A stretch of 31,831 bases of DNA from a virus, in IMG/VR virus record IMGVR_UViG_3300023501_000029, positions 1 through 31,831 of that record; one strand, 5' to 3'. Shown here piece by piece: positions 3,965 to 30,861 of the stretch; positions within the stretch are counted from its first letter, which is position 1; the number at the start of each line of letters is the position of its first letter. Under the pieces are notes generated by a model. That model had not been told where the DNA came from and searched no databases. It worked only from the letters and a program-made list of their open reading frames with translations. Both the position numbers and the translations under genes were made by a program.

Positions 3965-4390
3965 ATGCACCCCACATACTTGGGTTGGCAGGTCGATTGG
4001 CCTGTCTTTATTAAAATACCTCTTTCTGCCAATGGCAAGAATTGGAAACGTGGAGATCATTTTAACTGGTTAGAACGAAGCCTAGAGCAAGATAAAGTAG
4101 CTTCGCTGTACGTCTCTGGTTATTTGTATCACAATGTAGAATTAGAAGTTCAGACTAAAGTTGGAGATCGACTGTCTGAACTAGCTGGCAAGGAACTAGA
4201 AAGCCTAGTGAACCTGCTAAACGTAGAGGTTAAGAGTAGAACCTCTAGTAGTTCAGAGTTTGAAGCTAAGAAGTGTAAGAAGTCTAGGGTTGACGACAAA
4301 CAACGTGGCCTTATCAGACGCTTCCTTAATGCTAATCGCTGGATTACGGAAGACTTCTACGACATACGAGATAAGGTTCTCGCAGAGTAA
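3965..4390 (+). CDS. Hypothetical protein in head-tail connector region
   Basis: I do not recognise this 141-aa protein. It is basic towards the C-terminus, with a Ser-rich linker around residues 90-100 followed by KKCKKSR and a final helical segment RGLIRRFLNANRWITEDFYDIRDKVL. The N-terminal half contains several aromatic residues (YLGWQVDWPVFIKIPLS). It lies between the major capsid protein and the gp6-like connector, where a head-completion, fibre-anchoring or regulatory protein could be expected. GGAG at about 3953 is a plausible ribosome binding site. Confidence 0.6.
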   Translation: MHPTYLGWQVDWPVFIKIPLSANGKNWKRGDHFNWLERSLEQDKVASLYVSGYLYHNVELEVQTKVGDRLSELAGKELESLVNLLNVEVKSRTSSSSEFEAKKCKKSRVDDKQRGLIRRFLNANRWITEDFYDIRDKVLAE

Positions 4391-4410
4391 TAACAACGGA
4401 GACGACTTAC

Positions 4411-4866
4411 ATGGCATGGTCTTACGATCCTACAGACTTAGACACCACCACGGCCTCAGGTCGTCTCAACACAGTACGTCTGTTAGTTGGAGATACCGAT
4501 ACGGTTGACCAACAGGTTCAGAACGAAGAGATTACTTTTGCACTGGGTGAGAACGGTAATAACGTATATTACTCTGGAGCTTGGGTTGCTCGTGTCATTG
4601 CCTCTAAATACTCCCGACAGGTAACGACACAAATAAGTGGTGCCTTGAGTGCTGACTACTCAGACCTAGCCAAGCAGTACAAGACACTAGCAGATAACCT
4701 AGAGTACCAAGGTAAGACCGCAGGTGCTTCGGTGGGTGTCCTAGCCGGAGGTATCACGAAGAGTACCGTTGAGGCTGTACGGGCTAATACTAACCGTATC
4801 GAAGGCTCCTTCCGCAGAGATAGATTTAAGAACCCACCAAGCTACCAAACACCTGAATACGAATAA
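4411..4866 (+). CDS. Head-tail adaptor, gp6-like
   Basis: This 151-aa mainly helical protein has the features of HK97 gp6 / SPP1 gp15-type adaptors: a start with short acidic and Thr-rich stretches, RLLVGDTD, VQNEEITFAL, then AARVIASKYS-like helix sequence (AWVARVIASKYSRQVT) and YSDLAKQYKTLADNLEYQG. Adaptors bind the portal ring and begin the connector. It is the first of four genes in the standard connector order (adaptor, stopper, gp10-like, terminator). The tail of the protein is basic and Pro-rich. Confidence 0.65.
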   Translation: MAWSYDPTDLDTTTASGRLNTVRLLVGDTDTVDQQVQNEEITFALGENGNNVYYSGAWVARVIASKYSRQVTTQISGALSADYSDLAKQYKTLADNLEYQGKTAGASVGVLAGGITKSTVEAVRANTNRIEGSFRRDRFKNPPSYQTPEYE

Positions 4867-21876: not shown

Positions 21877-22642
21877 ACATTCCCTTCAGTCGGTTAATAG
21901 AAATAAACTCTGGATCGTACATCCCGTCCTCCACTTCTCGTTTAACAACTATGCCAGACCACCACTCTTTGTTGGCTTGACCTGCCCAGCTTTCCGCTGC
22001 ACCTTTGTAGCACCCCGCGACAAGACCAATAACTCCTCTAGGGTGAGAAGAGTCCTTAAACTTAAGGTCACGTTTATGGCTATGACCACAAGTGCTACTA
22101 TGATGGCGGTGAGCCAGTAACCCATTAGCATGATGCATACCAGACATAGCAGACCCAAAGTTACCACTACTAAAGTAATGAGCATACGAGACCCCATCGT
22201 AATCAGCAACCGATGGAGCGGAGTGTTCGTACTCGTGGTATTCGTCGAACCATCGGTCTGTCTGGAGATGCCCGAAAGATATGCCATACTTTGATCCTTC
22301 GAGGCGAGGATCGTGTTTAAGAGCTTTTTTAATTCTATTTTCATGGTTACCCTCAAATCCTATGTAAGCTGGACGCTTACGCTTGTGGTGTCTGAACTTC
22401 CACCTGATACGTTCTTGTGCATCATTGTAATGCTCAATATCTTGCTCATAACTCTGACTTACGATTGCCTCTGGGTAACGAGTGTCAAATGTATTTAAAG
22501 ACCGCATATCAGCGCCATCACCCAAATCTACAACATAGTCAGGTTTAAGATCGTACAAGAACTCCCCCAACCAGTTGAAACGCTCATTTCCCACTGAAGG
22601 GTCTACGTGAGCGCAACTATAAACCACTACTGTTTTACCCAT
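21863..22642 (-). CDS. Calcineurin-like metallophosphoesterase
   Basis: This 259-aa protein shows the motif order of metallophosphoesterases: VVYSCAHVD (DxH position, here CAH), VVDLGDGADM (GD), FEGNHENR (GNHE), a His-rich HYF/MHHANG region and TCGHSHKRD (GHxH). The usual first Asp is Cys in this copy. It likely hydrolyses a phosphomonoester or diester; the natural substrate is unknown. It is preceded by GGAGG seven bases before the start and is translationally coupled to the small gene upstream and the methyltransferase downstream. Confidence 0.75.
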   Translation of the reverse strand: MGKTVVVYSCAHVDPSVGNERFNWLGEFLYDLKPDYVVDLGDGADMRSLNTFDTRYPEAIVSQSYEQDIEHYNDAQERIRWKFRHHKRKRPAYIGFEGNHENRIKKALKHDPRLEGSKYGISFGHLQTDRWFDEYHEYEHSAPSVADYDGVSYAHYFSSGNFGSAMSGMHHANGLLAHRHHSSTCGHSHKRDLKFKDSSHPRGVIGLVAGCYKGAAESWAGQANKEWWSGIVVKREVEDGMYDPEFISINRLKGMYGQA

Positions 22643-22757
22643 CTGCTGCCTCCAACTCTAGTTCACTGATAGTTGCCCACAAATGAAACTCCACCTCTTT
22701 AAGCTGCTCTTTACTGAGCTTCTTTAATTTAGTTAACAAACTATTTACTTCAACCAT
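22635..22757 (-). CDS. Small hypothetical protein
   Basis: A 40-aa frame starts at 22757, overlapping the endonuclease I gene by 13 bases, and stops at 22635-22637, overlapping the metallophosphoesterase start by eight bases. It fills what would otherwise be a 100-bp gap. The protein is a charged helix (TKLKKLSKEQLKEVEFHLWATISELELEAA). AAAAGGA lies about 12 bases upstream, a little far. Its position suggests it is real but the evidence is only coupling and spacing. Confidence 0.45.
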   Translation of the reverse strand: MVEVNSLLTKLKKLSKEQLKEVEFHLWATISELELEAADG

Positions 22758-23823: not shown

Positions 23824-24023
23824 CAAAAGTCCCCAAAGACCATTTTACCATCATCCTTCTCGAAGGCAACATCTTCTACATAGGTAAACCCCCCAGCCCT
23901 AGCAGCATCAGCATACGCCTTACCTAGAGCATATAGGTCGTCAACCTCATATCGAACCAATGTTGTGCTTCCCTCGAAACCGTCCTCTTCACTGTCATGC
24001 TCAAAAGTAATAGTTAGTTTCAT
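23823..24023 (-). CDS. Small acidic hypothetical protein
   Basis: This 66-aa acidic protein (FEHDSEEDGFEGSTTLVRYEVDDL, then a short helix LYALGKAYADAARAGG) sits between the ssDNA-binding protein (ATGA overlap at its start) and the exonuclease (TGATG overlap at its end). Similar small proteins are seen in marine T7-like replication modules. No function is known. Confidence 0.6.
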   Translation of the reverse strand: MKLTITFEHDSEEDGFEGSTTLVRYEVDDLYALGKAYADAARAGGFTYVEDVAFEKDDGKMVFGDF

Positions 24024-24607
24024 GCGGCATCCACCTTAAACATACTCAACCCTTCCACTGTTGCACTTTCCTCGTAGGCAATATGGTTTGTAATAGCCAA
24101 ATTATTCAACCTGCGAGAAACCCCCTTGTAAACCTCAAACTCAACATAGGATCGTGTACCGTGACCTAGTTGTCCATCATCTTCGTAGCTCCACAGTCGT
24201 TTGTTCTCTTCGCCCTCCGTTAAGTCAACAACACCGGGGAAACCACCAAAGTCTACCTCTTTAAACTCCCCGGTCTTATAGTCTTTGTACTCTCGTACGT
24301 CCTTTACTTTACGCTTCAACTGGATGTACTGCCCAATACCAAACTCAGAGTTGCCCACTTTGATTGTGTCAACCTGTTGTCCTGTATTAGGGTTTGTCGC
24401 CATACGCTCATAACCAGTTTCCAAGAGTTGTGTAATCTGACCCTCTGAGGTAAAGTAAACATTCACTGCTGTTTGACCCCCACTCTTAGATAATTCACGC
24501 AACCACTTCTGATTGGATTCTGGATCACCGTAGTCTGCATTTTCCTTGAATACATTTGCGTACTCAAGAACCATTTCCATTACATAAGTTTTTGTATTTG
24601 TGGCCAT
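24020..24607 (-). CDS. Probable single-stranded DNA-binding protein
   Basis: The start at 24607 follows AAAAGGAAG at a suitable distance; an upstream ATG at 24652 would place the N-terminus over the promoter. The 195-aa protein has a predominantly beta composition with an acidic middle (EVDFGGFPGVVDLTEGEENKRLW) and SKSGGQTAVNVYFTSEGQ, in a position where marine T7-like modules encode a gp2.5-like ssDNA-binding protein. The usual strongly acidic C-terminal tail is not seen, so the assignment rests on position and fold-like pattern. It is the first gene of a leftward unit behind promoter A. Confidence 0.55.
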   Translation of the reverse strand: MATNTKTYVMEMVLEYANVFKENADYGDPESNQKWLRELSKSGGQTAVNVYFTSEGQITQLLETGYERMATNPNTGQQVDTIKVGNSEFGIGQYIQLKRKVKDVREYKDYKTGEFKEVDFGGFPGVVDLTEGEENKRLWSYEDDGQLGHGTRSYVEFEVYKGVSRRLNNLAITNHIAYEESATVEGLSMFKVDAA

Positions 24608-24641
24608 GTCGGGTACTTCCTTTTCACTGTTTCCGTATAAT

Positions 24642-24671
24642 ACTATATACACTTATTTGCGTTTTTCGCAA
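24642..24671 (-). promoter_or_regulatory. Promoter-like element A, upstream of ssDNA-binding gene
   Basis: On the - strand TTGCGA (24666-24671), an 18-base spacer and TATAGT (24642-24647) form a promoter-like element about 35 bp before the ssDNA-binding start. The spacer end AATAAGTGTA and the TATAGTA box match element B almost exactly. TTGCG also forms a small inverted repeat with CGCAA. It is the only space between the DNA polymerase and ssDNA-binding genes. Confidence 0.75.
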
Positions 24672-24695
24672 GCAGTCGTAGGCATTTATTTTAGT

Positions 24696-26540
24696 CTAGT
24701 GAATATCTGCGTAAGTATTGCCAAACTGTACATCTGTTCCTAGTGGTACGTTTAGATTTATCTCACGGTTCACGTTGTTGATCCCCATAGACATGATGTT
24801 TTCTGTTTTATCTTCGTCCCCCTCTTTGGTTATAACGATAATCTCATCGTGGAATTGACCGATAGTCTGTAAGCCCATGCCGCGACATTCCTTAACCCAA
24901 GTGTCAAAGCAGAACACCCCGGTGCCCTGATTGAGTGTACTGAAGCGGTCCTTCTCACTGCGTAGACTGTACCAAAAACCAGACACAGGGTTCTTTAGCC
25001 ACATACTTCCAAACAGTTCTCTTGTCCGTAGTGTGCTTGCTACCCTCTCAATGGCCCAGTTACGTGACCAGAAGGCTTCTAGCAGGGCCTTAGCTTCCTT
25101 TTGCTTCATACCTGTCTCACGGGACAGCTTGGCTGCTCCTACACCATAAGTGGCACTGTAGTTAACTACCTTGTAATTCTTACGGAGGGCCTTAAGTGAA
25201 CGCTCCCCAGAATTGTGCTTGTCGATGTCGTCTTGAGTAATGACACCAGCGTGTAGGGCCAAGTCTAAGTGGGGATCAAACCCCTCACGGCTCATCTCCT
25301 CCACGTATTCAGGGTCTAGTGGTTTCATATAGTGTCGTTTGGTTGTGTCTTCCAAGGATGTCATGTCAGCACCAGCTAACACATAACCTTCTGGACACGT
25401 CAGACACCCACGGATTACATCACCATATGGCTTGTCTACTCCCGGTAGATTTACCAGTGGTCGATAGTGCTTAAACCTAAACGTATTGGTTAGACCTGCA
25501 ACACCAGCCTGCAGCCAACCATTCTTATGACACTCTAGGAAAGATTTAAGTATGCCAGCCCTATGAGTAAGAACAGTGAGACCGTCAAGAAGATCCACAG
25601 CAGGGTCAACCTTTCCAAGGCTTCGGACACTTTGACATAGATCGCTGTTCTTTCGTACTTGTTCAATTTGTCTTTCATCACCAGTCACCTTATCCCTTAC
25701 GAATTTATATGTACGTGGCTTCCAACCCAGAGAATACAACCACTCTTTAACCTGATCTTTAGAGTTAGGGTTACCACGTTCTTCACCTGTCTTAACCTTA
25801 AATTGTGTTGTCGTCACAGACTGCTTGTACTCCTTACACAGGGACACCCACTTCTCCCCGTGTGATGATAGCTCTCCGTCTTTCTTGTGCATGACCTTTG
25901 GCTTTGCTGCCATACGCTCAAGGGTACGCTTAGGCATAGCGTCTGCCAGTTGCTCAACCTTCTCCTCTTTCAGTTGTATGATCTCATCGTAGGCTGCTTG
26001 AGCTTTAGGTACATCCAATTTCCATTGTAGGGCCTCTTGCTCTTTAGCACAATCTAGCTTGAATGATAGATAATCAATCAAACGATCCTTCTCAACTGGG
26101 TCTTGGTACAGCTTATTTAACTTAAGACCTAAGTCACGCCATAGACGGTTGTTGATCTTAACGTCCTCATCGCACCTGTGAGCGTATTCCTCTGGTGTTA
26201 GGCTGTCCCAGTCTGTAATCTTAGGCTTAGGTACTCCATAGTCCTCTCCGTAGCCCTCAAGCCCATGCTTCAAGCGGTCATGGTGTAGATACCAAGATAA
26301 AGCTAAGGTGTCTATCAAACGAGCCTTTACCTCTATGCCCAGTACCTTTTCTATCGCAGGTATGTCAAAGCGTATGATGTTGTGGCCTACCAGAGTTTCT
26401 GTGTTGAGCAACACATAGCGCATCTCGTCATAGTCATGCGTGTGCTTTACTTCACCCATATCATTAGACCAAGACATGACATGAATTTTGGTCAACACAT
26501 CTAATAGACCATCTGTTTCAATGTCGAATACTGTTGTCAT
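24696..26540 (-). CDS. Family A DNA polymerase (T7 gp5-like)
   Basis: The start at 26540 follows AGGAA; an upstream in-frame ATG is less likely. The 614-aa protein has a 3'-5' exonuclease domain (VFDIETDGL with Asp6/Glu8, GHNIIRFDIPAIE, later HRCDEDVKIN) and a polymerase domain with motif A ADMTSLED, motif B RKNYKVVNYSATYGVG and motif C GQFHDEIIV. The motif B residue equivalent to E. coli 762 is Tyr, as in T7. The motif A ExR Arg is replaced by Thr (EDT). It is shorter than T7 gp5 (704 aa). It replicates the phage genome with the nearby primase-helicase. Confidence 0.9.
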   Translation of the reverse strand: MTTVFDIETDGLLDVLTKIHVMSWSNDMGEVKHTHDYDEMRYVLLNTETLVGHNIIRFDIPAIEKVLGIEVKARLIDTLALSWYLHHDRLKHGLEGYGEDYGVPKPKITDWDSLTPEEYAHRCDEDVKINNRLWRDLGLKLNKLYQDPVEKDRLIDYLSFKLDCAKEQEALQWKLDVPKAQAAYDEIIQLKEEKVEQLADAMPKRTLERMAAKPKVMHKKDGELSSHGEKWVSLCKEYKQSVTTTQFKVKTGEERGNPNSKDQVKEWLYSLGWKPRTYKFVRDKVTGDERQIEQVRKNSDLCQSVRSLGKVDPAVDLLDGLTVLTHRAGILKSFLECHKNGWLQAGVAGLTNTFRFKHYRPLVNLPGVDKPYGDVIRGCLTCPEGYVLAGADMTSLEDTTKRHYMKPLDPEYVEEMSREGFDPHLDLALHAGVITQDDIDKHNSGERSLKALRKNYKVVNYSATYGVGAAKLSRETGMKQKEAKALLEAFWSRNWAIERVASTLRTRELFGSMWLKNPVSGFWYSLRSEKDRFSTLNQGTGVFCFDTWVKECRGMGLQTIGQFHDEIIVITKEGDEDKTENIMSMGINNVNREINLNVPLGTDVQFGNTYADIH

Positions 26541-26545
26541 TATTC

Positions 26546-26809
26546 CTACTTCTCCTCCCAAACTGTTGTTGTTTTGCTAACAGGTTCTACTTTTACCATG
26601 TAACTACCCTGTGCCATTTTTCCTTCTACGTCAAAGCCAATCCACCCAACCTTATAAAATTCTCTATCTTCTATGCAGAAAACTATACTGTGTAGGTGTT
26701 GGTCCCCTTCATAGTCGATTTCATCCAACTGCTCGGAATGTATCGCTATAAATCTGGGGTCATCATCAAACCCAATGCTTACGTAATCATACTCATCGTA
26801 ATTTTCCAT
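26546..26809 (-). CDS. Small acidic hypothetical protein
   Basis: This 87-aa acidic protein (IGFDDDPRFIAIHSEQLDEIDYEGDQ) has mixed alpha-beta composition. It lies between the primase-helicase (two-base gap) and the DNA polymerase, where other T7-like modules carry small unknown genes. No motif is recognised. Confidence 0.55.
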   Translation of the reverse strand: MENYDEYDYVSIGFDDDPRFIAIHSEQLDEIDYEGDQHLHSIVFCIEDREFYKVGWIGFDVEGKMAQGSYMVKVEPVSKTTTVWEEK

Positions 26810-26811
26810 AC

Positions 26812-28386
26812 CTATACTTCCCTTAATGTAAACGTATCTAAGTTAAATCGCATTGTACCAGCAGCGCCCTCTTCGGAGCATGGTCGGTTCTTCTCAACGC
26901 GAAGGTATGTTGTATTTCGTTCCTCTACAGTGTCTGCATCCTTCTCTCGTGATAAGTTAATGATAACAGAGGCCCTTTGACCTAGCATCTTACAATACTT
27001 AGGGTCACCATTGTCATTAGTGTGGGCAATAGTAACGATACCTACGTTTAGTTCTGCTGCCAGCTTAGATAAACGGATGGCTAGATCAGCAAGCATTGCC
27101 TCTTTGCCCTCATCAGATGAACCTACAACTACATCTTGGATAGGCTCAAAGAATACGAACTTACAGCCGCAGGCTTGACTAAAGTATCTGATCTGGTCGC
27201 ATAGCTCCTCTGCACCTTGTCCATCACCCATGAAGAATTGATAGTAAAGTTCACCCTTGGTTAGCGTATGGATAGCAGCAATAACCTTATCATTAGCTCC
27301 CTTATCCTCAATCAAATCCCTGCGTGTAAGGTTGTCATTACACTCGTATGACACAAGACCTAACAGAGACCTTAGCTTTGTTTCTTCTACGTGCATTGCT
27401 GCAATAGGGATGCCACGTTTAATCATGTTATATTCTAAGTATCGCATGACCTCAGTTTTACCTATCCCAGTAGGGGCCTTAATCAACGTGTAGTGGGCTT
27501 GCATCAGACCCAATATCTTATCATCTAATGCTTGGATACCCGTAGGTACATACTCATGTTCTGGTGCATCACGATACAGTGACAAGAAGTCGTCAGTTGT
27601 ATTCATTACATTCTCAGGAGTGTACTTACGTGCAGCCCACCAAGCCTGCTTAAACTCTGCTCCCTTGCCAGCCTGCAAGAACTCATTGGCATCCTTGTAT
27701 GGGTGATGGTTTACCCGGTAGACCTTATTAGGAAACAGCTTAGACACACGATCAGCTAGGGCATTACCTGCATCATCATCATCTACAGATAGGATAATCT
27801 TATCGAAGCTGCTTAACCACTCAGCACAGTTCTCCCAGAGCTTCTTAGATGGCGAAGCAGAGGGTAGAGACACAACAGGGTTAGTGTAGCTTCCCTTAAG
27901 TATTTGTGCCACTGAGAGAGCGTCTAGTTCCCCCTCAGTGATCGTTACCATCTTGGAACTACCAGCAGTAAACAGGTTCATGCCAAACAGTTCATCACCC
28001 TTGAAGTTAGACTTAGCGTAGAACCCTTTTTTATCTAGGGTACGAACTTTAATTCCCCCGCTGGGGTACATATACTCCTGACGATCACCATAGGTTAGTA
28101 CGCCATAGTCCTCCATCGTCTTGCTGTTGATGCTACGCATGTTGGTGTAAGACCCTGAGCCTACATCTTCGATCAGCTTAGGGGTAAAGTTAATTGCTGA
28201 CATATTGTATTCCTTATTTCCACTGACGGGGTACTTTTCACTGGACCAATCAAACTGCTCTCTTCTTGATGGGTATCCGCTGTCACAAGACTTGCAGTGT
28301 CCTGTGTGTTTCTCATCGTTCCAGCAAAATGCGTCAGAAGAGCCACAAGAAGGGAATGGGCAGGGTAGTCTTCCATGTTCAGACAT
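26812..28386 (-). CDS. DNA primase-helicase (T7 gp4-like)
   Basis: The start at 28386 follows AAGGAG eight bases upstream; the longer frame to 28521 lacks support. The 524-aa protein has an N-terminal zinc-ribbon (CPFPSCG, then CWN and CKSC), a TOPRIM region (VTITEGELDALS and ILSVDDDDAG) and a C-terminal hexameric helicase domain with Walker A APTGIGKT, FVFFEPIQD and IAHTNDNGD. It unwinds DNA and makes primers at the fork. An internal ATG at 28203, preceded by AAGGAA, could produce a shorter form without the zinc ribbon, like T7 gp4B. Confidence 0.9.
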   Translation of the reverse strand: MSEHGRLPCPFPSCGSSDAFCWNDEKHTGHCKSCDSGYPSRREQFDWSSEKYPVSGNKEYNMSAINFTPKLIEDVGSGSYTNMRSINSKTMEDYGVLTYGDRQEYMYPSGGIKVRTLDKKGFYAKSNFKGDELFGMNLFTAGSSKMVTITEGELDALSVAQILKGSYTNPVVSLPSASPSKKLWENCAEWLSSFDKIILSVDDDDAGNALADRVSKLFPNKVYRVNHHPYKDANEFLQAGKGAEFKQAWWAARKYTPENVMNTTDDFLSLYRDAPEHEYVPTGIQALDDKILGLMQAHYTLIKAPTGIGKTEVMRYLEYNMIKRGIPIAAMHVEETKLRSLLGLVSYECNDNLTRRDLIEDKGANDKVIAAIHTLTKGELYYQFFMGDGQGAEELCDQIRYFSQACGCKFVFFEPIQDVVVGSSDEGKEAMLADLAIRLSKLAAELNVGIVTIAHTNDNGDPKYCKMLGQRASVIINLSREKDADTVEERNTTYLRVEKNRPCSEEGAAGTMRFNLDTFTLREV

Positions 28387-28402
28387 GTGGCTCTCCTTTG
28401 AT

Positions 28403-28807
28403 TTACTGGTTACCAAATAATTTTTGGTTGGCGTAGTCTTGTAAGTTATCCATGCGGTATACTTGACCACGACCACGGTTTCGACAACCAGAGATGTGCA
28501 CCATAAAGTATTTTGGATCATTATCTAGCATCCAGTCAACTGTCCTCTGACAATCATCTGGGCCGTAGTGGTATTCCCAAGACCCAAAAGATTCTTTTTT
28601 ATCGGACTTCTCTACCCTTGCTTGAGAGTTGATGTTACCATCCACCCGATTTTCACCCTTATCTAAAAGTTCTGCACAAGCCATTACGTTTTCTTCCCTT
28701 ATGAAGGGATAGGGGTTAGCCAGCTTACGATTTGCAGTTTTATTGAGGCCCCTGATTGCGTTAACAGCATAGCCAAAAAGGTCGATGTTTGGTTCTTGAT
28801 TTTTCAT
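28403..28807 (-). CDS. Hypothetical protein between ParB-like and primase-helicase
   Basis: I do not recognise this 134-aa protein. The N-terminal half is helical (DLFGYAVNAIRGLNKTANRKLANP); the second part contains SFGSWEYHYGPDDCQRTVDWMLDNDPKYFMVHISGCRNRGRGQVYRMD, with a few His and Cys residues that might bind metal. It is co-oriented with the replication genes and 11 bp after the ParB-like gene, preceded by TGAGG. A DNA- or RNA-related role is only a guess from context. Confidence 0.55.
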   Translation of the reverse strand: MKNQEPNIDLFGYAVNAIRGLNKTANRKLANPYPFIREENVMACAELLDKGENRVDGNINSQARVEKSDKKESFGSWEYHYGPDDCQRTVDWMLDNDPKYFMVHISGCRNRGRGQVYRMDNLQDYANQKLFGNQ

Positions 28808-28818
28808 AGTGTTTTTCC

Positions 28819-29730
28819 TCAGTTCATTTTTGATGTGTCAGGTTTAACTACAAGCAAACTTTGTATCTCAGACATATGTTCACCAATAGCATTATACAGT
28901 GCGATAAGACCCGCTGCGTTGTAAGATTGAGAATGTTTACCATCCCCATTTTCAAGTATGTGCATGATAGACCTTGCCATACCCTTGTCACCTTCTTGTA
29001 AGTGTAAGTCTCTGGCTGTAGAAACCAAAGCACCTGCTGCAACATTACTATCCCAATTAGATCCCCCAATACGCATAAGCTCATCTAGGTTTACTGCCTT
29101 TGGCTTTGGTGCATTGGTCTTCTTAGGTAACCCTTTACGTTTTCTCCTCTCTTTATCTGCTGCATTAAGTGTCATGTTACCCTTACTAACTTCATCCGCT
29201 AGGTCAGGTGCATCACGTTTGATTGCCTTTGCTGTCTTTACGGCAGTTGTACCTACGTTAAGATGATCCGCAGAATCTTTGGTGGACTTATCAAAGGACG
29301 AATTCGTCTCTTGATCCGACTTTCTGTCCCCTCCGTGCCTAATAGTAGCTAAAGCAGCCGCAGTCATAGCCCTTTGACCAGTGGTCAGATGCCTACGCAT
29401 AAGATTAGCTGCAACAACACGATCCAGAACTACATTGAACGGCATATCATCTGGTAGATTCTCATAATCAGGCTTAACACCAGCCTTCAAACATGCCTTG
29501 TGCCTATGTCGACCATCTACGATCCAGCCTTGCCACATTAGTATTGGCTCAAACAATCCATACTGCTTAATACTACCAACAAGGCCATCAAACTCCTGCG
29601 TATTTTCAAACGAGACAAACACTGTTGATAGTTCGTGATATTCAGGCTCCTTATCAACATCTGTGAGTTTTGGTTGACGACCACTGGTATCTACACCTAA
29701 CCACTTTCCAGTGTCCTCTAAAACTTCCAT
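28819..29730 (-). CDS. ParB/Srx-domain DNA-binding-like protein
   Basis: This 303-aa protein has a ParB-like nucleotide-binding core: FDGLVGSIKQYGLFEPILMWQGWIVDGRHRHKAC, including the DGRHR motif, then VAANLMRRHLTTGQRAMTAAALA. A basic central region follows (IRHGGDRKSDQE, then TTAVKTAKAIKRDAPDLADEVSKGNMTLNAADKERRKRKG), which resembles the helix-turn-helix of ParB-family proteins. No partner ParA is seen. It is the first gene after promoter B, so it may regulate replication or host functions. ParB-domain proteins of phages include nucleases and transcription regulators; which applies here is unknown. Confidence 0.7.
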   Translation of the reverse strand: MEVLEDTGKWLGVDTSGRQPKLTDVDKEPEYHELSTVFVSFENTQEFDGLVGSIKQYGLFEPILMWQGWIVDGRHRHKACLKAGVKPDYENLPDDMPFNVVLDRVVAANLMRRHLTTGQRAMTAAALATIRHGGDRKSDQETNSSFDKSTKDSADHLNVGTTAVKTAKAIKRDAPDLADEVSKGNMTLNAADKERRKRKGLPKKTNAPKPKAVNLDELMRIGGSNWDSNVAAGALVSTARDLHLQEGDKGMARSIMHILENGDGKHSQSYNAAGLIALYNAIGEHMSEIQSLLVVKPDTSKMN

Positions 29731-29815
29731 ACTTAAGTATCCTTTCTATTATTATTCCTGCTAGGTTGATCTGTTAGTAAATACTTTAGTAACACTTTCC
29801 TAAAGGGTACATCTT

Positions 29816-29845
29816 ACTATACACACTTATTAGAAAAACCCGCAA
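29816..29845 (-). promoter_or_regulatory. Promoter-like element B, upstream of ParB-like gene
   Basis: On the - strand TTGCGG (29840-29845), an 18-base spacer and TATAGT (29816-29821) lie in the 126-bp gap between the sigma-like gene and the ParB-like gene, about 85 bp before the start. The spacer end AATAAGTGTG and TATAGTA match element A, with the same spacing. The rest of this gap holds only the RBS AAAGGAT and no other feature I can name. Confidence 0.75.
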
Positions 29846-29856
29846 GTCACGAATTG

Positions 29857-30414
29857 TTACAGCTTAGACATTTTAAGAAGTGCTGCCGTTTCTATTAATG
29901 AGATAGATTGACGACTAACACCATAAAAATAAGCTACATCATCCTGAGTCATATCATCAAAGTAACGCATTTGTATCACCTCCTTTTCCCTATGATTTAA
30001 CTTTGCCATGCCTTTGCCAAGGTAATCTTTATGCTCATACCTTTCCGTACAGTCCTGAACAGCTACCATAAAGTCCCCATTAAACTCTACAGCAGAAGAA
30101 GACAAAGCATCGAACAGAGCCTTCTTTCCCCTATCGCTGTACGTTTGATTATTCCAGTCTTTACCCATTGCTAGTTGAGTAGCCATGTCAGAAGCTGGAA
30201 CCGTAACAGCCTTGTTCTTTATGTTGATGTATCCGTGCATAGCCTTGTTCGCCCTCCTGTACAGGCTTGCAGGATATTCATCTGGATTAACCGCTAACCT
30301 TTCATATATTGCCAACATACCCTCTGATATTAAGTCGTCTCTCATGTCAACACGGTTGTACTTGTAGGCCAACCTTACGCACATCTTCTTGATCTCAAGC
30401 CCAGTTAAGCTCAT
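29857..30414 (-). CDS. Sigma-70-like RNA polymerase sigma factor
   Basis: This 185-aa protein has a region 2-like segment near the N-terminus (MCVRLAYKYNRVDMRDDLISEGMLAIYERL) and a region 4-like helix-turn-helix at the C-terminus (LNHREKEVIQMRYFDDMTQDDVAYFYGVSRQSISLIETAALLKM), the order of small alternative sigma factors without a long region 3. It would bind host RNA polymerase core and redirect it. The gene is the last of the right-hand early block; promoter B begins 12 bp after its stop. It overlaps a 47-aa gene upstream by 20 bases. Confidence 0.8.
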   Translation of the reverse strand: MSLTGLEIKKMCVRLAYKYNRVDMRDDLISEGMLAIYERLAVNPDEYPASLYRRANKAMHGYINIKNKAVTVPASDMATQLAMGKDWNNQTYSDRGKKALFDALSSSAVEFNGDFMVAVQDCTERYEHKDYLGKGMAKLNHREKEVIQMRYFDDMTQDDVAYFYGVSRQSISLIETAALLKMSKL

Positions 30415-30538
30415 ATTCTATCTCCAAATCATTTAACTCTCGTTGCCTTGTGCGTATCAGGTAGATTGCTTCCTCTAACGGTACGTCAGGTGATTTCTCC
30501 AGTGCCTTGATTAGTTTCTGTAGCTCTTCTTTATTCAT
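30395..30538 (-). CDS. Small hypothetical protein, sigma-coupled
   Basis: A 47-aa frame starts at 30538, overlapping the DUF3310 stop (ATGA) with AAAGGAT upstream, and ends inside the sigma gene. The protein is a charged helix ([42 protein letters not shown]). It fills the gap between two genes and is translationally coupled to both. It could be a small regulator or sigma partner, but nothing shows this. Confidence 0.55.
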   Translation of the reverse strand: MNKEELQKLIKALEKSPDVPLEEAIYLIRTRQRELNDLEIEYELNWA

Positions 30539-30861
30539 AACTTATCCTTTCCCTCAAGTTGATTTATACGCATCTGTGCATACCGTATGACCTTTTCTAG
30601 GTCTGTTATCTCACTTTGAACTTCACTCATTCCCTCGTAGGGCTTGTAACCTGCACGACTGGCATACTTGATAATGTTACCACGCCAGAACTCAAACCCG
30701 TTCATCATAATGTATGTGATAGGTTCTATTTTCCATCGGGCGTAGTGTTGTGGTTCGTTCACAATATCTTCTGCGTGATCTCTCATTGGTTTTCTCCACT
30801 TGTTAACTTGATCTCTAAACACAGATCGTTTTCGCTCTTCTTCACTCATGCGTCTAATCAT
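30535..30861 (-). CDS. DUF3310 (SaV-like) protein
   Basis: This 108-aa protein has the DUF3310 pattern: [39 protein letters not shown], then [16 protein letters not shown]. Such proteins are common in phage early regions and are sometimes annotated as nucleotide-kinase-associated, with no established activity. It is in a row of small early-type genes. An internal ATG five codons in is an alternative start. Confidence 0.8.

Follow-up and report, generated by a model that had tools for sequence, protein, structure and literature searches.

What reads the two promoter-like elements that lie in the leftward gene cluster of the virus record IMGVR_UViG_3300023501_000029? The window, by which we mean the whole stretch of DNA analyzed, is a 31,831-base fragment of a marine phage whose replication proteins are related to those of Roseobacter phage CRP-6 (69% identity for the DNA polymerase). 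A motif of the form TTGCG-N9-AATAAGTGT-N-TATAGTA occurs in it exactly twice, at 24641-24671 and 29815-29845, both on the minus strand; no further copy is seen in the window even with three mismatches allowed, and 100 dinucleotide shuffles of the window contain none. The sequence-only reading that first described this pair gave its coordinates and its 18-base spacer correctly, and suggested that a dedicated factor, probably the sigma-like protein encoded next to one copy, recognizes both. This suggestion held when relatives were compared: the positions are conserved, two blocks of the element co-vary between its copies, their letters are coupled to sigma residues (including those of a recognition helix) independently of the polymerase phylogeny, and a third site exists. 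Very probably, then, a phage sigma70-family factor redirects the host core RNA polymerase to three sites, here termed A, B, and C, with a specificity that diversifies rapidly and co-evolves with them.

Site A denotes the copy after the sigma gene and site B the copy after the polymerase gene. Both consist of CTTGCG(A/G), about 9 free nucleotides, ATAAGTGT(A/G), and TATAGTA, and columns are numbered from the first C. Relatives were gathered by a polymerase search, which yielded 80 loci. A homologous sigma gene encoding 180-195 amino acids (aa) is found in about 70 related phage contigs, and wherever it was found and the contig extends far enough, it precedes the primase. In most such loci, the sigma stop (TAACAATTCGTGA) is followed by exactly 25 nt and then the TATA box, and 102 loci (52 distinct) have a homologue of site A behind this stop. 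Site B is situated at a distance of 4-5 kb, past the DNA polymerase, and in nearly all 80 loci this gap carries a B-type site ending in TATAGTATAnTAC or a near-variant. The element as such is kept in relatives carrying the sigma gene with respect to position, architecture, and the match between A and B, though not in its letters: the -35 box may read, among others, GAATAA, GCATAA, GTATAA, GTCTAA, or GTTACA, with no fixed TTGACA-like -35. Because the exact letters are lineage-specific, a collection-wide scan for AATAAGTGTNTATAGTA, which returned 36 mostly unrelated contigs, was informative for same-species contigs only.

The letters that differ between genomes do so in step at both sites. In a comparison of 31 non-identical genomes with 20,000 shuffles of genomes, the -35 blocks of A and B (columns 2-7) were 94% identical within genomes versus 52% when shuffled (z 9.8), and the blocks preceding the -10 box (pre-10 blocks, columns 17-25) were 92% identical versus 58% (z 10.1). 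The identity of the mid-spacers (49 versus 41) and of the downstream bases (29 versus 26) was barely above the shuffled level. Both blocks change in concert between genomes, whereas the mid-spacer and the downstream DNA do not, and the register is fixed, with the TATA 18 nt after the -35 hexamer. For example, contig L066 carries GTATAA...GGGTCAC at both A and B, and L058 carries GTTACA...GTATCCC at both; the pair reads TTGT...TTAGACAC in L115 and TTGCG...ATAAGTGT in the window. This is the trace that a single bipartite reader with lineage-specific specificity would be expected to leave. Gene conversion between the sites is disfavored, because the mid-spacer would have been carried along.

The same data bear on the main alternative named by the sequence-only reading, a host sigma70 promoter combined with a shared operator. 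The window elements are indeed fair matches to ordinary host promoters (TTGCGA-18-TATAGT), which might resemble each other through recent duplication or a shared host-type operator. However, the mid-spacers within one genome are unrelated, which speaks against duplication, and relatives keep the positions while the letters of both blocks, -35 and pre-10, are replaced together at all three sites. This alternative fits poorly because the -35 varies (GAATAA, GCATAA, GTATAA, GTCTAA) in step with the phage protein, and because the motifs track phage sigma residues rather than polymerase relatedness. We consider it very unlikely.

The coupling to sigma can be separated from general relatedness. Given the polymerase, the blocks of site B follow sigma distance (partial Mantel r 0.69, p 0.0002); given sigma, they show no relation to polymerase distance (partial Mantel r 0.01, p 0.41). 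The mid-spacer of site B follows the polymerase instead (r 0.47). In the pair L072 and L066, the polymerases are 98% identical, the sigma proteins only 51%, and the motifs at A and B are both fully switched.

To locate the coupling within the protein, we used 67 non-identical pairs of sigma and site A, contrasting same-motif pairs of low identity with different-motif pairs of high identity. For the -35 hexamer, the top sigma columns are 169, 168, 172, and 170, which form the recognition helix of region 4; residue 169 is common to 97% of the divergent same-motif pairs as opposed to 16% of the similar different-motif pairs. For the pre-10 block, the leading columns (92, 84, 76, 90, 81, 87, 91, and 75) fall just after region 2, and D76 is unique to the window sigma within the compared set. 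The corresponding segment, residues 74-92, is the putative pre-10 reader, in agreement with a published inference that in some extracytoplasmic function (ECF) and phage sigmas an extended -10 is read by the segment just C-terminal of sigma2 (PMC5333181). Specific helix residues recur with specific motifs in divergent proteins: NKM with GTTACA, NQK/HQK with GTCTAA, NQT with GAATAA, NQS/HQS with GCATAA, SRQ with TTGC, and QQ with TTGT or TGTG. The combination of SKQA/TKQA with TTGAC occurs in proteins as distant as those of CRP-6 and L248, and the same residues accompany the same bases in proteins less than 40% identical. Two string-match tallies, one of changes at helix residues 168-169 and one giving 33/35 for NKM, were set aside, since such matching also picks up LNKMS or the wrong segment. 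Natural swaps separate the two predicted specificity modules: VPASNTARG accompanies TGAGGTTCC both beside a GTATAA -35 (helix QKS) and beside a TTGTGG -35 (helix QQG), and IPKSWTARD accompanies AAAAGTCCC beside a -35 of either GTCTAG or TTGAC.

Could the sites instead serve another DNA-binding function of the phage, such as a replication origin, packaging, or a homing endonuclease, and be coupled to sigma by linkage only? Variable genes, including endonuclease-like ones, do lie near the sites in relatives. Yet site B is 4-5 kb away from the sigma gene and site C several kb away on its other side, the polymerase adjoining B follows a different history, the association is concentrated on the recognition helix and the segment after region 2, and each site stands, in sense orientation, at the start of a transcription unit. 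Taken together, these observations leave linkage barely credible as an explanation.

The 185 aa protein of the window is best read as a sigma70-family factor that would bind the core and support transcription. It matches Pfam Sigma70_r4 (E 3e-13), as do all 30 aligned homologues, and 19 of these 30 also match Sigma70_r2 (E<=0.1, best 6.7e-5). The family profile aligns residues 10-185 of the protein with residues 41-252 of SigB (8x6g), and this alignment includes a conserved DL..EG stretch, which in known sigmas belongs to the core-binding region 2.2. In an AF2 model (pLDDT 78.7), the 50 PDB fold matches listed are sigma or RNA polymerase-sigma entries only, with a best E of 1.3e-5; the TM score in the fold comparison is about 0.34, and domain orientation is uncertain. 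The best PDB matches are SigB and SigA, with the ECF sigmas SigL and AlgU ranking lower. An ECF sigma would consist of regions 2 and 4 without region 3, at about 20-25 kDa; the length fits, the linker is modeled poorly, and a Pfam match to Sigma70_ECF is weak and confined to 7 of the 30 homologues.

A sigma-like DNA-binding regulator, activating or repressing at the same bipartite site beside the host sigma70 holoenzyme, is equally compatible with the evidence that the protein reads the sites; TATAGT is an acceptable sigma70 -10, and region 4 is the only part recognized in the window protein itself. We nevertheless regard such a regulator as unlikely: the two blocks are spaced as for a sigma factor and the TATA immediately follows the second, most homologues show a detectable region 2 and a conserved DL..EG, the listed fold matches are sigma factors, and -35 boxes such as GAATAA and GCATAA are not expected to serve host sigma70.

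The preferred reading, a phage sigma directing the host core, gains from a third site that, like the apparent two-module code, the sequence-only reading did not include. Site C lies outside the window, on the opposite strand and upstream of the terminase genes; besides the species of the window, 12 other contigs were found to carry it, among them the cultured phage CRP-6. In the window's species, it is represented by the near-copy CTTGCGCAAATCAAAAATAAGTGTATATAATA (one mismatch) at 15453-15422 of locus L133, which corresponds to 35453-35422 (minus strand) of G001, a 39.7-kb contig that has 27,020 identical bases in common with the window. There, it shares its strand with the structural genes and precedes the small terminase gene by about 310 nt. 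G001 contains no additional copies beyond B and C (A being off the contig), and its next-best scores of 15-16/20 are no better than those of a reversed-motif control. Ten distinct contigs hold sigma, A, and the terminase start; in these, the genome's own A motif scores 16-20/20 upstream of TerS, whereas unrelated motifs reach at most 15. L217 has A plus a second matching site. The complete CRP-6 genome, MK613348, contains exactly three sites of its own motif, GTTGACT-N10-C(A/G)GACGTCATA, located after sigma (4093+), after the polymerase (8032+), and before the small terminase (42211-); the -35 of its site A overlaps the sigma stop codon, and a motif-free (de novo) pair search recovered the three site pairings among the top pairs. 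The element therefore heads three units: replication, post-polymerase, and late genes. We propose that A is the promoter of the ParB-like, primase/helicase, and DNA polymerase genes, B that of the 210 aa gene through the exonuclease, ribonucleotide reductase, and PhoH genes, and C a late promoter. As a separate observation, L186 and L191 carry TTGACA-N17/18-TATATTAT upstream of the small terminase, near the expected place of site C; these elements resemble strong host-type promoters and are candidate early promoters.

Several observations weigh against this reading. In Pfam, region 4 is the sole match of the window protein taken by itself, and region 2 becomes visible only through its relatives. 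The linker (approximately residues 65-118) is of low confidence in the AF2 model, so that the pre-10 reader is assigned on statistical grounds. In place of TATAxT, TATAAG or TATTAG occurs at many A sites, and in a few A-B pairs (L115, L291, and L092) the two -35 boxes disagree at one or two positions. Each tested motif offers only 4-6 phylogenetically independent pairs; on the polymerase tree nearly all of their pairings are concordant and none is discordant, numbers too small for significance alone. Finally, L071 combines a sigma and a site A of the GAATAA type with a site B of the GTATAA type. It is the only discordant contig and a short one, its last 300 nt (approximately 4200-4507) switch from L072-like to L066-like sequence, and it is likely recombinant or chimeric, that is, an assembly chimera or a fresh recombinant with a mismatched promoter.

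From these comparisons, we infer binding, core recruitment, transcription, and a temporal order as follows. The sigma gene would be expressed early, presumably from host-type promoters, and its product would capture the host core polymerase and then open A, B, and C. Residues 168-172 of region 4 would read the -35 block, and residues 74-92 the stretch of about 9 bases that immediately precedes a TATAxT-type -10. Site A would drive the primase and polymerase genes, B the polymerase-distal and nucleotide-metabolism genes, and C the terminase and structural genes. As A lies downstream of the sigma gene, the factor apparently does not drive its own gene. Protein and promoters may diversify together by mutation and allele exchange, giving each lineage its own specificity, and drift or exchange could be quick because only about three sites must follow. 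Avoidance of cross-reading by co-infecting relatives is a possible, speculative driver. More tentatively, and with slightly more doubt than confidence on our side, the group may harbor a diversifying set of mutually orthogonal transcription programs, each built from a two-module sigma and about three sites, in which the promoters of relatives would go unread upon co-infection and the alleles would amount to a readable amino-acid-to-base code.

The leftward cluster comprises, in order, the genes for the Sigma70_r4 protein, the ParB-like protein, a 134 aa protein, the primase/helicase, an 87 aa protein, DNA polymerase A, a 195-210 aa protein, an exonuclease, a B12-type ribonucleotide reductase, and PhoH (coordinates are given in the table). 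That the elements occupy its two largest gaps is broadly right. The gap at site A spans 29731-29856 (126 bp), and that at site B approximately 24608-24695 (88 bp) once the start of the 210 aa open reading frame (ORF) is moved to an ATG at 24607; its mechanically assigned GTG start at 24652 would overlap the site B element. Two further apparent gaps hold small ORFs, one at 22635-22757 and one of about 44 codons (approximately 30415-30550, minus strand) that runs into the sigma start. ORFs similar to the latter occur in many relatives, and co-expression with sigma is possible. Among the earlier labels, a single-stranded DNA-binding function of the 210 aa protein was not confirmed, as it has no Pfam or PHROG match, and the ParB-like label rests on PHROG matches of E 5e-6 and weaker; this gene is uncommon in relatives, with a match in only 15 loci. 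Positions 1-328 of the window lie inside a tandem repeat of approximately 69-bp units, with more copies at 26693-27119 of G001, which is probably the reason why the assembly broke there.

Table. Positions in the window of the sigma gene, its proposed reading segments and sites, and the adjacent genes.
Feature	Coordinates	Strand	Basis or remark
Sigma70-family protein, 185 aa	29857..30414	-	Region 2-like N-terminal part, variable linker, region 4 helix-turn-helix
Recognition helix of region 4, codons 167-173, SRQSISL, proposed reader of TTGCG	29896..29916	-	Column association
Codons 74-92, proposed reader of the pre-10 block (AATAAGTGT in the window phage)	30139..30195	-	Column association
Site A: CTTGCGG-GTTTTTCTA-ATAAGTGTG-TATAGT	29816..29846	-	Exact match
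-35 hexamer of site A, TTGCGG	29840..29845	-	Co-varying block, columns 1-7
Pre-10 block of site A, ATAAGTGTG	29822..29830	-	Co-varying block, columns 17-25
Site B: CTTGCGA-AAAACGCAA-ATAAGTGTA-TATAGT	24642..24672	-	Exact match
-35 hexamer of site B, TTGCGA	24666..24671	-	Co-varying block
Pre-10 block of site B, ATAAGTGTA	24648..24656	-	Co-varying block
ParB-like protein, first gene downstream of site A	28819..29730	-	PHROG ParB-like partition, E 5.5e-6
Primase/helicase, proposed site A unit	26812..28521	-	PHROG 239, E 1e-95
DNA polymerase A, end of proposed site A unit	24696..26561	-	Pfam DNA_pol_A; PHROG 17, E 9e-106
195 aa protein from ATG at 24607, first gene after site B	24020..24607	-	Start read from sequence

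It has long been asked how a factor and its sites can shift specificity while the regulon stays intact, and for sigma factors natural series of intermediates are scarce. The present group of phages seems to offer dozens of alleles together with their matching promoters, convergence that recurs, and natural module swaps. The evolution of promoter specificity would thus be recorded in nature, as a lock-and-key change of a protein and its start signals. It may also be a source of small orthogonal sigma/promoter pairs, and three transcription units are predicted for an abundant marine phage group with CRP-6 as a cultured member. In the open-licence literature, neither this regulon nor an allelic series of this kind was found to be described, which is weak evidence of absence, and the main text of the CRP-6 description paper mentions neither a sigma nor a promoter. 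The new part would be the allelic series and the apparent specificity code, since phage sigma regulons themselves are known.

T7-type single-subunit RNA polymerases have lineage-specific promoters, and their specificity shifts together with the protein. They are alike in that one specificity serves all promoters of a phage and differ in being another class of enzyme, of which none was seen among the window proteins searched. In the Zobellviridae, TC6_041 matches phrog_1740, as does the CRP-6 protein gp14, and the sigma gene is situated in the replication block. In these phages (TC6_041, CW02 gp21), it lies between primase and polymerase, unlike in the window group. A de novo pair search in Salinivibrio phage CW02 (L296) yielded three alike sites (7087+, 34033-, and 46118-; TGTAGA...ACTATAT), two of which fall within or border gaps that precede the replication and capsid genes. 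This may be the same layout served by a different sigma, gp21; in Pseudomonas phage TC6, this search gave no convincing site set.

Similarity to ECF sigmas concerns the size of about 185 aa, the two-domain build, and the location of the segment reading an extended -10 (PMC5333181), although the window protein resembles SigB/SigA at least as much. Moreover, the phage extended -10 was described with the -35 absent (PMC5333181), whereas here both elements are present and both co-vary. Phage sigma regulons have been established for phiEco32 gp36 and 7-11 gp47, whose promoters differ while their positions are similar (PMC8948821). The phiEco32 gp36 is likewise a phage sigma, for middle and late promoters, whose positions are kept and specificity differs relative to 7-11; it differs from the present factor in its single-element promoter tAATGTAtA, with no region 4 homology and no -35 reading (PMC8948821). 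SaPh711_gp47 of phage 7-11 is similarly podovirus-encoded and uses the host core RNA polymerase (PMC8948821). Its eight promoters from one phage allow only a coarse contrast with phiEco32 (PMC8948821), whereas the group described here offers about three sites per genome in dozens of co-changing alleles.

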